Below are positions 7,634 through 13,338 of a stretch of 21,929 nt of DNA, in pieces (positions within the stretch are counted from its first letter, which is position 1; each line of letters begins with the position of its first letter). Under the pieces are notes generated by a model. That model did not search any database. It saw only the letters and a list, made by a program, of their open reading frames with translations, and was not told where the DNA came from. Source of the stretch: a virus; the IMG/VR virus record IMGVR_UViG_3300033997_000237, positions 1-21,929 of that record. One strand, 5' to 3'. A program made the translations under genes and the position numbers.

Positions 7634-7864
7634 TTAGGCCGCTTGGTTGGGTTGATAACGACCGGCAGCCCTCACCTCATCAGGCGAATAAGTCCCGCCA
7701 GACAGGTCGCTGATGATCTCGGAGTAATTCGTCTCCCCGGTAAATTCAGTGCGGGGAAGACAGTCGCGAGCCAGCCACTTGTATACCGCGCGCGGGCTAA
7801 TCTTCGCCGCCTTGGCGATATGGATGACTCCGCAATGGGAGATAATGGTCTTGAACGATGACAT
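7634..7864 (-). CDS. Cro-like / YdaS-family repressor
   Basis: A 76-residue protein with a helix-turn-helix at about 11-35 (GVIHIAKAAKISPRAVYKWLARDCLP), then RTEFTGETNYSEIIS and YSPDEVR, the layout of YdaS/Cro-type proteins encoded opposite a CI repressor. It should bind the same operators as CI and shut off CI during lytic growth. AAGGAGG at 7871-7877 is placed six bases before ATG 7864, and a promoter with the correct spacing lies upstream in the divergent gap. In the E. coli Rac prophage, YdaS has been called a toxin; here the promoter-proximal place favours the Cro role. Confidence 0.8.
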   Translation of the reverse strand: MSSFKTIISHCGVIHIAKAAKISPRAVYKWLARDCLPRTEFTGETNYSEIISDLSGGTYSPDEVRAAGRYQPNQAA

Positions 7865-7887
7865 GATATGCCTCCTTGATGTACTCG

Positions 7888-7910
7888 CAGTTCATAATAA
7901 ACGTGAACTG
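7888..7910. promoter_or_regulatory. Operator candidate: 23-bp inverted repeat over the PR -10 box
   Basis: Perfect 7-bp arms CAGTTCA (7888-7894) and TGAACTG (7904-7910) flank a 9-bp AT-rich centre. The repeat covers the -10 box of the minus-strand promoter, the expected place for a CI/Cro operator. Confidence 0.65.
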
Positions 7911-7922
7911 ATTGAGACTCAA
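7894..7922 (-). promoter_or_regulatory. Promoter for the cro-like operon (PR equivalent)
   Basis: On the minus strand, TTGAGT (complement of 7917-7922) and TATTAT (complement of 7894-7899) are separated by exactly 17 bp, and the start codon of the cro-like gene follows 30 bases later with a strong Shine-Dalgarno. Each box differs from the sigma-70 consensus by only one base. The -10 box sits inside the inverted repeat described next, so repressor binding would block it. Confidence 0.75.
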
Positions 7923-7939
7923 GATATCGTTACGATTGA
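7912..7939. promoter_or_regulatory. Second operator candidate and possible CI promoter
   Basis: Two perfect 11-bp palindromes are adjacent: TTGAGACTCAA (7912-7922), which overlaps the minus-strand -35 box, and ATCGTTACGAT (7926-7936). They do not share the arms of the 23-bp repeat, so they may serve Cro or a different protein. On the plus strand TACGAT (7931-7936) could be a -10 box placing transcription start at or next to the CI ATG. The matching -35 (CTGATT, 7908-7913) is weak, which fits a PRM-type promoter needing activation. Confidence 0.4.
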
Positions 7940-7943
7940 ACCC

Positions 7944-8621
7944 ATGGTACAAACTAACGATGAAAGGGCAGCCTTCGCCCAGCGACTCCAAAAAGCAGCT
8001 AACGCTGCTGGCCTGCCAAGTCGTGGCCGAGGCGCAAAAATAGCCCAACACCTCGGGGTCACCCCAAAGGCCGTCAGCAAATATTTTAATGCTGAGGCCA
8101 TCCCTGCGCGTGACACCATGATCGCCCTGGCCAACATGCTCGGGGTGTCGGTTTCCTGGCTTCAATACGGTGAATCGGAATTGGAGTTAATGACCCGCAC
8201 ACCGCAGCGGCTGATCCCAGTGCTCGATTACGTTCAGGCGGGCGCCTGGACGGAGGCTTGCGGGGCCACTGATATTGATGGCAGCACCGAATACATCTAT
8301 GCGGATCCACGAATGGGGAAAAATGCGTTTGCCCTGCGCGTCAAAGGCGACAGCATGTTGCCAGAGATCCGCCCCGGCGATGTTGTGCTCATTGACCCAG
8401 ACGCAAGCCCCCGCCCCGGGGAGTTTGTGGTTGCCAAGAACGGCAACGGCGAGGCCACGATCAAACAATACCGCCCACGCGGAGTGAATGATAAGGGTCA
8501 GGAGTGGTTCGAGCTGGCACCGCTCAATGATGTATTCCCAACCATGAGATCAGACCTGCAAACGATCCAGTTGATTGGCGTCGTGGTGGAGCATCGGCGC
8601 AGCACCAGAAAGGCGTTATAA
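7944..8621 (+). CDS. cI: CI-type phage repressor (HTH + S24 peptidase)
   Basis: A 225-residue LexA-like repressor from ATG 7944. Residues 8-76 hold an HTH (GRGAKIAQHLGVTPKAVSKYFNAEAIPARDTMIALANMLGVSVSWL). The C-terminal S24 domain has the Ala-Gly cleavage site in VQAG (A99-G100), catalytic Ser137 in KGDSMLP and Lys174 in EATIKQY. It should hold the prophage silent and self-cleave when RecA is activated by DNA damage. No Shine-Dalgarno is visible upstream, so the message may be leaderless, as lambda cI is when made from PRM. The frame is open further upstream to 7749, but that part overlaps the cro-like gene and operators and lacks repressor features. Confidence 0.92.
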   Translation: MVQTNDERAAFAQRLQKAANAAGLPSRGRGAKIAQHLGVTPKAVSKYFNAEAIPARDTMIALANMLGVSVSWLQYGESELELMTRTPQRLIPVLDYVQAGAWTEACGATDIDGSTEYIYADPRMGKNAFALRVKGDSMLPEIRPGDVVLIDPDASPRPGEFVVAKNGNGEATIKQYRPRGVNDKGQEWFELAPLNDVFPTMRSDLQTIQLIGVVVEHRRSTRKAL

Positions 8622-9689: not shown

Positions 9690-9749
9690 ATGACGAATCA
9701 ACTGGGAATTAGCGAGGACCACCCGCTAACAACGGAGACTGTATCATGA
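9690..9749 (+). CDS. Possible 19-codon leader peptide
   Basis: ATG 9690 directly follows an AGGACCCAGC leader. The frame gives MTNQLGISEDHPLTTETVS and stops by ATGA overlap with the next gene. The leader plus the overlap suggest real translation, perhaps to couple the 81-residue protein. At 19 residues, coding status is uncertain. Confidence 0.4.
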   Translation: MTNQLGISEDHPLTTETVS

Positions 9750-9991
9750 CCAGACGCCTTTTTTCCAGAGCCGCGAAAAGCGCCGACCAGATCGTTGCCG
9801 CCATCGCCGACCGCCTGAACGGCAACGCCGCCCGCCGCCGAACCATCAAGCAACGCTTGACGGTTGCCATGATGGCCACCGAGCGGCACCAGATTGTTGC
9901 AGCCCGCGCAGCCCAGAAGCGCACCAACGGCCTCACCACGAGTAACAACCTTCTCAAATGGCGCGCTGAGTTCCACCGCCACTCAGTCTGA
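9746..9991 (+). CDS. Small basic protein, first gene of the PL-type operon (81 aa)
   Basis: An 81-residue, strongly basic protein (MTRRLFSRAAKSADQ at the N-terminus, then NAARRRTIKQR and ARAAQKRTN). It is predicted to be mostly helical with no membrane segment. It is the first substantial gene after the leader, the place lambda reserves for the N antiterminator, and an rRNA-type boxA begins about 100 bases after its stop. An arginine-rich RNA-binding antiterminator is therefore one reading, but N proteins share little sequence and the basic stretch is not at the very N-terminus. I do not recognise a family. Start fixed by ATGA overlap and GGAG eight bases upstream. Confidence 0.6.
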   Translation: MTRRLFSRAAKSADQIVAAIADRLNGNAARRRTIKQRLTVAMMATERHQIVAARAAQKRTNGLTTSNNLLKWRAEFHRHSV

Positions 9992-10030
9992 TATCCCGGG
10001 TCTGGCGCTTCCCTGATAGCGCCGTAGCCA

Positions 10031-10543
10031 AAGCCTCTTTCTCAAGCACCGCAAGGATGCTTTGGCTTCGCTCACGCCAAATTCGGCTGGGCCTGCTCTT
10101 TAACAACCTGGAACCGGCTCACAACCACCAATCCCGATGCCGGTAGGGATGCGCCGATACCCCGTTAAAACCGGAAAGCGGCGTGTGAAAGTGAACGATT
10201 TATCACTCGACTATTGCGACATCAACACAACAGGGAGTGCGAACGATGTAACCGACAGCCGTTAGAAGCGGCCAATCCATGCGCCAGTAATGATGGCGCC
10301 CCGAGTTCTCCGCGTGGGAAACCAGCTTTGCATCTGGTTAGGGTCAATAAACCAAGTGGCATGGGTAGAGCAGTCCACAAATCTGGGGTGGACACCTGTT
10401 ATTAGCGGCGATAGCGCGACAGCACGGACGGCTTACCAGAAGGCGCCGGATGACGTAACCGGCAACCCGCTGGCAACAGCGGGTATCCCAAGGCGGCTCC
10501 GGTGGAGCTGGCAACACCATAGCGTCGAAGCTGTGGCCGCCTT
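10031..10543 (+). ncRNA. Structured leader RNA with rRNA-type boxA (candidate antitermination RNA)
   Basis: About 580 bases separate the 81-residue gene from the next supported start. TGCTCTTTAACAA at 10094-10106 is the boxA of bacterial rRNA leaders, the NusB/S10 recruitment site. Upstream, AAGCACC-GCAA-GG(A)TGCTT (10044-10062) forms a GNRA-loop hairpin inside a larger stem AAGCC/GGCTT (10031-10035, 10064-10068). Downstream come GCGCCA/TGGCGC (10281-10299), AACCAG/CTGGTT (10320-10339), GTCCAC/GTGGAC (10373-10393), GCCGG/CCGGC (10445-10463), ACCCGCTG-GCAA-CAGCGGGT (10465-10484) and AAGGCGGC/GCCGCCTT (10490-10543). Every arm listed is perfect except the bulged A in the first. Frames at 10214 and 10290 lack a ribosome site. 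Role (nut-like, put-like or a separate small RNA) is inference. Confidence 0.5.
10094..10106 (+). promoter_or_regulatory. boxA antitermination element
   Basis: TGCTCTTTAACAA is identical to the core boxA of enterobacterial rRNA operons. It is on the coding strand of the operon, between the first gene and the recombination genes, and follows a GNRA-loop hairpin, the boxB-boxA order of rRNA leaders. Confidence 0.75.
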
Positions 10544-10570
10544 CGGATAAACCACCACAGGACCCAGACC

Positions 10571-10762
10571 ATGAAAAATCTGACCGAAGCCCAGGTGATG
10601 GGCTTTCGCGGCGCGATGGTGCCACCCACCCGCCGCAAATATGACGTAGATGCCGCCCCATCCGCCGAGCAAAAGCGGATGGCCAAGACCAAAGCCACTA
10701 CCCGCCGCGCCATCGAGAAGTATCACGAAGCGCTCGCCCTCCGTCGTGAAATGGAGCTCTAG
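10571..10762 (+). CDS. Small hypothetical protein (63 aa)
   Basis: A 63-residue basic protein beginning MKNLTEAQVMGFRG. AGGACCCAGACC (10559-10570) abuts its ATG. It contains a charged helical C-terminal half (EQKRMAKTKATTRRAIEKYHEALALRREMEL) and no recognisable motif. It is the first gene after the structured leader RNA and ends two bases before the next ATG. Its function is unknown. Small basic genes of this kind are common ahead of recET in prophages. Confidence 0.65.
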   Translation: MKNLTEAQVMGFRGAMVPPTRRKYDVDAAPSAEQKRMAKTKATTRRAIEKYHEALALRREMEL

Positions 10763-11130: not shown

Positions 11131-11522
11131 AAACCACAGAAACGGGCATTTTAACGCTGGTGCGAGATCACGCCTTCTGGGCCGATGAGGTTAGCAGGCT
11201 AAAGGCGCTGGGTTCTGATGCTTATTCTCGGTGCAAAAGCGTTGATACAGCTGGGGAGGGAAGTAACTTTCACTCCTTTGGCACTCCATGCCTCGAGACG
11301 GTTGTGAATGAATACCGGTCACTAAAACAAGACCCTTACGAATGCATTGAGTTCGAAGAGTTCTATCGGGAGTGCGTCGATAAGGATGAGGTTTGTTGCT
11401 GGTGCCAGAAAGTGCGCGAGTACAAATTGAAGCGAGTCAGGGCGAGGGTGAGGCTTGGCCAAATTAGAAGCGCCATCACTCGCATAGGTCGCAGACTGAC
11501 AGCAGAAGGAGGTCCACTATGA
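11127..11522 (+). CDS. Hypothetical phage protein with Cys cluster (131 aa)
   Basis: A 131-residue protein from ATG 11127 (MKTTETGILTL), set by the ATGA overlap with the previous gene. A longer frame to 10833 is a shadow. The central part has ECVDKDEVCCWCQKVREYK with several cysteines (89-93), followed by a very basic helix (LKRVRARVRLGQIRSAITRIGRR), the look of a nucleic-acid-binding tail. The first two thirds are visibly less GC-rich than the neighbours, suggesting separate acquisition. The stop overlaps recE by ATGA. Function unknown. Confidence 0.7.
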   Translation: MKTTETGILTLVRDHAFWADEVSRLKALGSDAYSRCKSVDTAGEGSNFHSFGTPCLETVVNEYRSLKQDPYECIEFEEFYRECVDKDEVCCWCQKVREYKLKRVRARVRLGQIRSAITRIGRRLTAEGGPL

Positions 11523-12364
11523 ACGCCATCGCCGACACCTCCGCCGCGCACCCGCTGGGTCGGGTGTTCGGCCTCTCCAACGAGGAGTACCACGCAGGCC
11601 CCGGGGTCAGCAAAAGCCAGCTCGACCAGATCGCCGAGAGCCCGGCAACTTACATCTGGGCCAAGAATGCCCCGCTCGACCAGGAGAAACTCAAGGCCTT
11701 CGACATGGGCAGCGCCATCCACTGCCTGCTGCTGGAGCCCGACGAGTTCAAAGACCGCTTCATCATCGCCCCACCGTTCAACCGCCGCACCAATGCCGGC
11801 AAGGCAGAAGAGGCCGAGTTCCTGGCCAGCTGCGCAGAGCTGGGCAAGACGGTGATGGATGCCGAGGAGGGACGCAAGCTCTACCTAATGCGCGACAGCG
11901 TGATGGCCCACCCGGACGCACGCTGGCTGCTGGAGCAGGAAGGGCACAGCGAGGCCTCCTTCTACTGGATTGACCCCCAGACCCAGGAGCTGTGCCGGAT
12001 CCGCCCCGACCGCCACCTGAGCAATCACCCCATCATGATCGACGTGAAGTCGGTGGACGATATGGGGCGCTTCGAGCGCCATGTCGAGGACTTCCGCTAC
12101 CACGTGCAGGATGCCATGTACTCCGAAGGCTTCCACCGGGTGATGGGCGAGGAGCCGGAATTCGTCTTTCTGGCTGTCAGCACCAGCGTGAACTGTGGCC
12201 GCTACCCGGTGCGGGTGCGCCCCCTGACGGATGACTGGAAGGATGCAGGCAAGGACCTGTTCCGCCGCGACCTCCATCGCTTCCACGACTGCCGGGTCAA
12301 CAACGACTGGCACGACTTCAAACCCCTCCAGCGCCCAGCCTGGGCGACAAGGAAAGCAGCATGA
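11519..12364 (+). CDS. RecE-like exodeoxyribonuclease VIII (PD-(D/E)XK)
   Basis: A 281-residue protein matching the C-terminal nuclease domain of RecE. Visible elements: LSNEEYHAGPGVSKSQLDQI (19-38), FDMGSAIHCLLLEP with H68 (61-74), E145 in SEASFYW, CRIRPDR with D164, IMIDVKSVDD with D175 and K177, and the YHVQDAMYSEGF helix with H195 and Q197. It digests the 5' strand of double-stranded ends, leaving 3' tails for the RecT partner next door. It lacks the long N-terminal extension of Rac RecE, as is normal for compact phage forms. Translational coupling by ATGA exists on both sides. Confidence 0.92.
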   Translation: MNAIADTSAAHPLGRVFGLSNEEYHAGPGVSKSQLDQIAESPATYIWAKNAPLDQEKLKAFDMGSAIHCLLLEPDEFKDRFIIAPPFNRRTNAGKAEEAEFLASCAELGKTVMDAEEGRKLYLMRDSVMAHPDARWLLEQEGHSEASFYWIDPQTQELCRIRPDRHLSNHPIMIDVKSVDDMGRFERHVEDFRYHVQDAMYSEGFHRVMGEEPEFVFLAVSTSVNCGRYPVRVRPLTDDWKDAGKDLFRRDLHRFHDCRVNNDWHDFKPLQRPAWATRKAA

Positions 12365-13338
12365 GCAACATCACCAGCCTCAAACAGCAGGCGGCCGATA
12401 ACTTCGCCGCCCAGTTCCCCATCCTCGTCCAGCGTGGCATCGACGAGCCGACCTGGAACGCCCTGTGCAACACCATCTACCCGGGTGCCAACCCCGATTC
12501 GGTGGTCATGGCCATCGACTACTGCAAGGCGCGCGGCCTGGACATCCTGCTCAAGCCGGTCCACCTCGTCCCCATGCAGGTGACCGATGCCCGCACCAAG
12601 GAGAAGGTATGGCGTGATGTGCCGATACCCGGGATCGGCATGTACCGGATCCAGGCCGATCGCTCCGGCAACTACGCAGGTGCCGACGAACCCGTGTTCG
12701 GGCCGGATGTGACCGAGGAGTTCCAAGACCCCTACAACCAGAGCGCCAAGATCAAGGTCACCTACCCGCAGTGGTGCAAGTACACCGTCTACAAGATGGT
12801 CAATGGCCAGCGGGTTGCCTTCCGCGCCATGGAACGCTGGAAGGAAAACTACGCCACCCAGAGCGGCAAGACCGAATGCCCCAACGCCATGTGGCGCAAG
12901 CGATCCTACGCCCAACTCGCCAAGTGCACCGAGGCGCAGGCGCTGCGCAAGGCCTGGCCGGAGATCGGCAGCGAGCCCATCGCCGAGGAGATGGAGGGCA
13001 AGGAGATCATCATCAACGAGATCCCAGGCAACCAGCCACAGCAGACTTCCCCAGCGAAGAGCCGCACCCTGGATGCCATCCGCAGCCAGAGCACCGAATC
13101 GGTCACCCTGGAACATGAGCAGATGGCCGAACCCGCCCAAGCGGACCACGCCAACGCCTACGCCGACCACTGTGCCGCCATAGAGGGATCCAGCGATACC
13201 GCCGAGTGGCAGCAGGCCTACACCACCGCCTGGACCTGGGCCAACGAAACCGGCGACCAGAACATCATCGCAGGTATCAAGCAGATCGCCGGCGAGCGCA
13301 AGAAGCAGCTCAGTGCCGGGAACGGCGCCCAGCAATAA
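12361..13338 (+). CDS. RecT/Bet-family single-strand annealing protein
   Basis: A 325-residue phage recombination protein of the Redbeta/RecT superfamily. The core covers residues 20-215: FPILVQRGIDEPTWNALCNTIYPGA, MAIDYCKARGLDILLKPVHLVPM, IPGIGMYRIQADRSGNYAG, AKIKVTYPQWCKYTVYKMVNGQRVAF and MWRKRSYAQLAKCTEAQALRKAWPE. The C-terminal 100 residues are a flexible linker and a short helical domain, where relatives contact host SSB or the exonuclease. It anneals complementary strands produced by the RecE-like enzyme, whose stop overlaps its start by ATGA. A terminator-like hairpin lies just after its stop. Confidence 0.93.
   Translation: MSNITSLKQQAADNFAAQFPILVQRGIDEPTWNALCNTIYPGANPDSVVMAIDYCKARGLDILLKPVHLVPMQVTDARTKEKVWRDVPIPGIGMYRIQADRSGNYAGADEPVFGPDVTEEFQDPYNQSAKIKVTYPQWCKYTVYKMVNGQRVAFRAMERWKENYATQSGKTECPNAMWRKRSYAQLAKCTEAQALRKAWPEIGSEPIAEEMEGKEIIINEIPGNQPQQTSPAKSRTLDAIRSQSTESVTLEHEQMAEPAQADHANAYADHCAAIEGSSDTAEWQQAYTTAWTWANETGDQNIIAGIKQIAGERKKQLSAGNGAQQ

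Follow-up and report, generated by a model that had tools for sequence, protein, structure and literature searches.

The antitermination leaders of ribosomal RNA (rrn) operons, which sustain transcription of these genes, combine boxB, boxA and boxC and engage NusA, NusB, NusE, NusG, SuhB and S4, and lambda-type nut sites, which act with N (as also in mEp021 with Gp17), carry boxA in the leader of an early operon. The put RNA of phage HK022, two stem-loops without boxA that are present on both early operons, is thought to act without a phage protein. Conjugation or other long operons are likewise headed by an RNA in the conAn systems of Gram-positive bacteria and in EAR. put and EAR are the standard examples of RNA-only processive antiterminators, and conAn2 is an RNA antiterminator as well (PMC8955417). 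Here we analyse a 21,929-nucleotide (nt) stretch of viral DNA (IMG/VR record IMGVR_UViG_3300033997_000237, positions 1 to 21,929; hereafter the window), in which a boxA followed by a pseudoknotted fold lies ahead of recombination genes. On the basis of its sequence and position, we propose that this RNA (10095-10195) probably belongs to a new family of structured leader RNAs and most likely serves as a cis-acting processive antitermination signal that uses host factors.

With rrn leaders the element shares an identical boxA, a promoter-proximal position and an apparent independence of any phage protein, but a pseudoknot domain follows boxA here, in place of boxC and the leader-trailer strand. 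The covariance model of the element leaves the rrn leaders of carrier genomes unmatched, with only one or few matches per genome; the window has no Rfam rRNA match, and protein genes follow the RNA. Like put, the element is a structured RNA heading a phage early operon, and the model gave no match in HK022 at 24-36 kb. The boxA in an early-operon leader also recalls lambda nut; however, the pseudoknot takes the place of a boxB directly after boxA, and there is one site only. No N gene is common to the carriers; in Aeromonas phages an 81-residue (81-aa) protein is a candidate. conAn is set apart by its description, as it requires the protein ConAn1 and belongs to Firmicutes, and Rfam returned no EAR match for the element. 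A suhB-type boxA lies in an mRNA leader too, but adjoins the ribosome-binding site (RBS), serves repression and has no reported structured domain. Host antitermination in Gram-negative conjugation operons is represented by RfaH and ops, the latter named in RP4 (PMC8955417); ops is a DNA element, whereas the signal here would be a nascent RNA with boxA. Devices of this kind are already known (put, EAR, nut, conAn); the concrete new claim is the RNA family, and no description of the element was found in the open-licence literature.

boxA is an integral part of the RNA

The original prediction had pointed to an exact rRNA boxA, which we find at the position given (Table 1): GCTCTTTAACA is the sole match in the 22-kb window, even when two mismatches are allowed, and arithmetic puts the chance expectation for an exact match at ~0.01. 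Leaders of relatives were collected by BLAST with the whole boxA region, the loci being fetched through protein matches. boxA is unchanged in 38 of the 39 distinct leaders, the exception being L060 (GCTCCTTAACA), and several stems change in step. In a test independent of boxA, two scans with the 3' loop motif alone yielded 39 contigs, all of which have boxA: 38 had already been recorded with the exact form, and L357 has GCTCTTTAATA. boxA is an integral part of the RNA element.

Apart from L060, the sequences agree with the published functional consensus of the NusB/NusE site, GYTCTTTAANA (PMC5725501), and the only variants in E. coli copies, GCTCTTTAATA and GTTCTTTAATA, fall at positions that this consensus tolerates. 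In the survey of that study, boxA was sought within 50 nt of annotated gene starts (PMC5725501), so that most copies of the boxA-pseudoknot RNA would be missed.

A covarying pseudoknotted fold follows boxA

Viral contigs were scanned for boxA with CCCGT...CGGAA at a fixed distance behind it, and the 104 stretches obtained, together with the earlier loci, represent 75 distinct modules, many of them from phages unlike the window. A 39-sequence alignment (A1) supports five helices, one of which is a pseudoknot, formed by the strand that directly follows boxA and the loop of the hairpin that comes next. In this alignment 88.7% of cells pair, compared with 27-43% when the partner strand is slid, and 91 cells change on both sides, compared with 24.6 in shuffles that ignore shared ancestry; the pseudoknot solutions are nevertheless unrelated in sequence. 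The window uses CCGGC/GCCGG, and elsewhere GGGC/GCCC, CTGCA/TGCAG, GGCACA/TGTGCC, GGGAAA/TTTCCC or GGCT/AGCC is found. Pairing is kept in at least five unrelated versions of the pseudoknot, and none of 1000 permutations of the loops among sequences reached the observed complementarity.

Covariation above the shuffled and slid controls, in the module and in the hairpins upstream of boxA described below, as well as the permutation result for the pseudoknot, identify a conserved structured RNA. Minimum free energy (MFE) alone is a poor guide, as the 203-nt leader scores a z of -1.2 even though its helices covary. The Rfam search suggested with the original prediction returned no Rfam 15 family at gathering score in the window or in 19 relatives, the only hit being a weak one to HgcC (E 0.09).

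A pseudoknotted RNA with conserved loop nucleotides in a 5' untranslated region might be a riboswitch or an attenuator of its operon. We consider this extremely unlikely: the element sequences read contain no terminator/antiterminator pair, RBS switch or RBS-sequestering arm, no metabolite is common to the gene contexts, and the near-invariant boxA would be left unexplained. Attenuation in particular was rejected, as no terminator was noticed after the element in these sequences.

Table 1. Features of the leader region and its surroundings in the window
Feature	Position	Strand	Basis
CI-type repressor (HTH + S24 peptidase)	7749..8621	+	domain matches
81-aa basic protein (pI 12) with GN.ARRR..KQR stretch, possible RNA-binding partner	9746..9991	+	sequence
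Aeromonas-phage extension, three hairpins before boxA (10004-10023, 10026-10067, 10070-10092)	9998..10093	+	covariation
boxA TGCTCTTTAACAA, identical to rRNA boxA	10094..10106	+	sequence; conserved among relatives
Core module, boxA + pseudoknotted RNA, ~100 nt	10095..10195	+	covariance model, 81.9 bits, E 4.2e-17; window is one of the 39 sequences from which the model was built
Pseudoknot helix, CCGGC 10114-10118 pairing with GCCGG 10139-10143 (loop of the following hairpin)	10114..10143	+	covariation, permutation
Closing helix, TCAC 10119-10122 with GTGA 10191-10194	10119..10194	+	97.4% paired, mostly invariant, little covariation
Hairpin ATCCC/GGGAT, loop forms pseudoknot	10131..10150	+	93.6% of cells paired; 4 of 6 pairs change on both sides
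Helix GCGCCG/CGGCGT around hairpin CCG/CGG with conserved CCCGTTNAAANCGGAA	10151..10184	+	alignment helices; also predicted by folding alone
Variable cargo slot, noncoding filler here	10197..10550	+	145-2149 nt between boxA region and 63-aa gene in relatives
Separate noncoding module, also beside terminase genes of lambda-like Aeromonas phages	10257..10463	+	sequence comparison
Hairpin pair including CCCGCTG-GCAA-CAGCGGG, end of cargo slot	10464..10550	+	z -4.7; conserved in many relatives
63-aa protein, first conserved gene past the cargo slot	10571..10762	+	conservation among relatives
Exonuclease (DUF3799, PD-(D/E)XK) of early operon	11519..12364	+	family match
RecT recombinase of early operon	12361..13338	+	family match

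The RNA heads two unrelated types of operon

The element was located at 148 distinct places, 94 with recE/recT-type genes downstream, 25 with virB-type conjugation genes and 29 in mostly short or other phage contexts. It heads two unrelated operon types, the early operons of prophages with recE/recT and the virB conjugation operons of integrative and conjugative elements (ICEs), a colibactin-linked element and plasmids. Carriers of the virB type include the yersiniabactin ICE of E. coli, another E. coli element and a Pantoea conjugative plasmid; the colibactin-adjacent element retains only part of its conjugation genes. No linked protein common to the recE/recT and virB settings was found.

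In enterobacterial prophages the RNA lies ~140-300 nt past a repressor-like gene (that of L116 has no Pfam match), and DUF3799 and RecT proteins are encoded downstream of it in those checked. In 35 of the 36 recET loci that lack the 81-aa gene, boxA is preceded by a promoter that agrees with the consensus at 10-11 of 12 bases and ends 27-36 nt upstream of it, and the RNA should therefore form the 5' end of the transcript. By its place, the RNA is promoter-proximal in a long operon for recET and virB operons, although the ICE copies show no such promoter. In conjugation-operon copies (for example L219, L227, L233, L240, L243 and L249) a GGACG-N6-CGTCC-like palindrome, possibly an activator site, is present shortly before boxA. 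Several ~40-kb phage contigs (L073-L094) have a different leader at the same place, with an exact boxA and a CACCGC-GATGAT-GCGGTG hairpin in a nut boxA-boxB-like arrangement.

Regulation by Nus factors through boxA has been described for suhB and a Citrobacter toxin gene (PMC5725501), and one E. coli prophage copy of the RNA stands ahead of a toxin-antitoxin pair. By analogy, the Nus complex recruited by boxA might prevent the first gene from being translated and trigger termination by Rho, thereby silencing the mobile element. This seems unlikely to us, as the distance from boxA to the first gene usually exceeds 100 nt and includes a conserved fold for which repression has no need, and early phage operons need strong expression.

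In two E. coli Rac-like prophages the RNA is followed by a toxin-antitoxin pair, kilR, recE and recT. Other small RNAs are known at this place in Rac (KilS in K-12), and together with the compact fold they would agree with a stable small RNA that is released from the leader and acts in trans. The element, however, is always in sense orientation at the head of an operon, no terminator follows the module, and boxA would have no explanation, all of which makes a trans-acting RNA very improbable. In K-12 Rac (L264 7406-7503), KilS is located between sieB and kilR, and the module is absent from the region. Some E. coli Rac-like prophages (L260 7600-8104) keep the KilS region and have an extra segment inserted before kilR, in which the boxA-pseudoknot RNA is accompanied by a toxin-antitoxin pair and a Rha gene. 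KilS of K-12 was rejected as a homologue, since it differs in sequence and lies upstream of the element's place.

Distribution among phages and bacterial genomes

The module occurs in ~100 viral contigs. With the covariance model, and with stricter filters for the larger samples, it was detected in named genomes of Aeromonas (14 of 37 species), of the enterobacterial family (27 of 295 genomes), of the order (8 of 394) and of the phylum (2 of 349). Among complete E. coli genomes, 206 of 5426 carry it. A motif scan of named genomes gave matches in Aeromonas and a range of Enterobacterales; matches in Ignavibacteria, Clostridia and Flavobacterium (L224, L230, L245) were judged to be chance by inspection of the sequences, in which the fold is apparently absent, rather than by the model. 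Among 50,697 phage records, three diverse module queries found only the Aeromonas temperate phage phiARM81mr and a fourth found none. phiARM81mr is also the phage that the window most resembles, with 94% identity over 70% of its length.

The original prediction of an antitermination-type leader with an rRNA boxA fits all of these findings and gains much from the distribution, but its length of 500 nt has to be reduced to ~100 nt, and its restriction to phages does not hold: the same RNA heads virB conjugation operons of enteric bacteria and of Aeromonas elements.

An upstream extension in Aeromonas phages

The genes around the element in the window follow a lambda-like leftward early operon layout, with a 234-aa protein encoded on the + strand between the CI-type repressor and the 81-aa protein. 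Three hairpins upstream of boxA, found only in Aeromonas phages, covary (GGCGCT/AGCGCC, AGCCAAAGC/GCTTTGGCT and GCTCA.GCC/GGC.TGGGC), with 97.6% of cells paired and 40 double changes compared with 9.7 in shuffles. The 81-aa protein adjoins this leader and sits where N would in lambda; its divergent forms read SGNKARRARLHRR, and it has no family match. Its conserved GN.ARR stretch recalls N proteins, which we take as a lead only; the protein is a possible unrecognised N-like protein.

An N-like protein encoded by the element itself, such as the 81-aa protein, might bind a hairpin and act together with boxA, so that the leader would be a nut site. The highly basic character of the protein, the resemblance of its stretch to N arginine-rich motifs and its place next to the leader would all agree, as would the additional covarying hairpins, with GNRA-like loops, that Aeromonas phages have upstream of boxA. 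The protein was found in the Aeromonas phage setting only, however, whereas the RNA of enterobacterial phages, ICEs and plasmids is not accompanied by it; a nut site is therefore improbable as an account of the family, and the protein is perhaps an Aeromonas-only add-on. Likewise, the upstream extension may be an addition that strengthens the leader, and the common module can be explained without it.

Extent of the RNA and the cargo slot

The original prediction treated the region as a single chain of hairpins of 500 nt. The hairpins ahead of and after boxA are real, with conserved upstream stems and GCAA loops (AGCACCGCAAGGATGCT; CCCGCTGGCAACAGCGGG), but they do not belong to one RNA: the covarying module stops at 10195, and one 500-nt RNA is ruled out because relatives carry other DNA across 10197-10550. 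Similarity among relatives extends from before the 81-aa gene to ~10197 and resumes at ~10550. In the loci L002-L071 this cargo slot is where accessory genes might be sought, and some of them have canonical terminators behind them.

The filler of the window is made up of 10197-10279, a noncoding module at ~10257-10463 and the stable hairpin pair; 10280-10465 is an insertion that phiARM81mr and others lack. The MFE of 10257-10463 is no better than that of shuffles (z 0.01). As had been noted, there is no convincing open reading frame: the frame 10290-10550 has no match to a known protein family, and indels in homologues disrupt every frame across 10257-10463, so that coding at 10290-10550 was rejected for the part that lies within 10257-10463. 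The ~205-nt noncoding module is common to the window, L113 (4499-4702) and L114 (6001-6205), with 79-80% identity and two-sided changes at four predicted pairs. In L113 and L114, lambda-like Aeromonas phages, it belongs to the late region and has an unnamed gene on one side and the terminase genes on the other. It is preceded by a minimal start-stop frame with a Shine-Dalgarno-like GGAG (ATG-TAA at 10246-10251 in the window; ATG ACC ATT TAG just before 6001 in L114).

Terminators downstream of the RNA

Terminator-like hairpins had been predicted downstream. The + strand of the window has none, but 19 of 94 phage loci do have intrinsic terminators, on the sense strand in the stretch from the RNA to the rec genes. 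Within 3 kb, the phages have 50 sense terminators compared with ~6 in shuffles, and 36 on the other strand.

Discussion

boxA, the pseudoknotted fold, the place at the 5' end of long operons and the occurrence in phages, ICEs and plasmids alike are read from the sequences; the step from structure and position to an antitermination function is one that we infer. A Nus-dependent antitermination leader is the likeliest reading because of the rRNA boxA, the promoter-proximal site, the long operons and the lack of a shared protein. We give roughly even odds to the stronger proposal that the RNA alone, with host Nus factors, makes the polymerase processive and termination-resistant, and that it is a portable switch common to temperate phages, ICEs (yersiniabactin and colibactin-linked) and conjugative plasmids of Enterobacterales and Aeromonas. 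In this mechanism, NusB/NusE(S10) would bind the nascent boxA and recruit the Nus complex. The pseudoknot domain, still attached, would hold or complete the modified RNA polymerase, as put RNA docks on polymerase, and the modified enzyme would pass Rho sites and, in some phages, also intrinsic terminators inside the operon. In Aeromonas phages, swapped-in cargo and the exo/recT genes behind it would then be expressed from one leftward promoter.

Several observations weigh against antitermination. boxA can also repress, as in suhB, and the pseudoknot has only ~3 base pairs in the largest ICE lineage, whose setting poses a further difficulty, since ICE copies show no recognisable sigma-70 promoter just upstream. 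There is one copy per phage, compared with one on each early operon in lambda and HK022, and no second copy was found at the rightward promoter in the window or in the phage records tested. Finally, an excess of intrinsic terminators is missing from the window and from almost every virB operon, and the target there would have to be Rho or pausing.

The element looks like an undescribed device that helps mobile DNA to express long operons. As it is small and, if it works, is expected to function in ordinary laboratory E. coli, its activity is open to direct test. Very few processive antiterminators consist of RNA only, and a widespread, covariation-supported family that joins an rRNA boxA to a pseudoknot would offer a further case in which to study the remodelling of RNA polymerase by nascent RNA. 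The family could also explain how virB operons and swapped phage cargo escape polarity and Rho, which matters for how ICEs spread in E. coli and Klebsiella.
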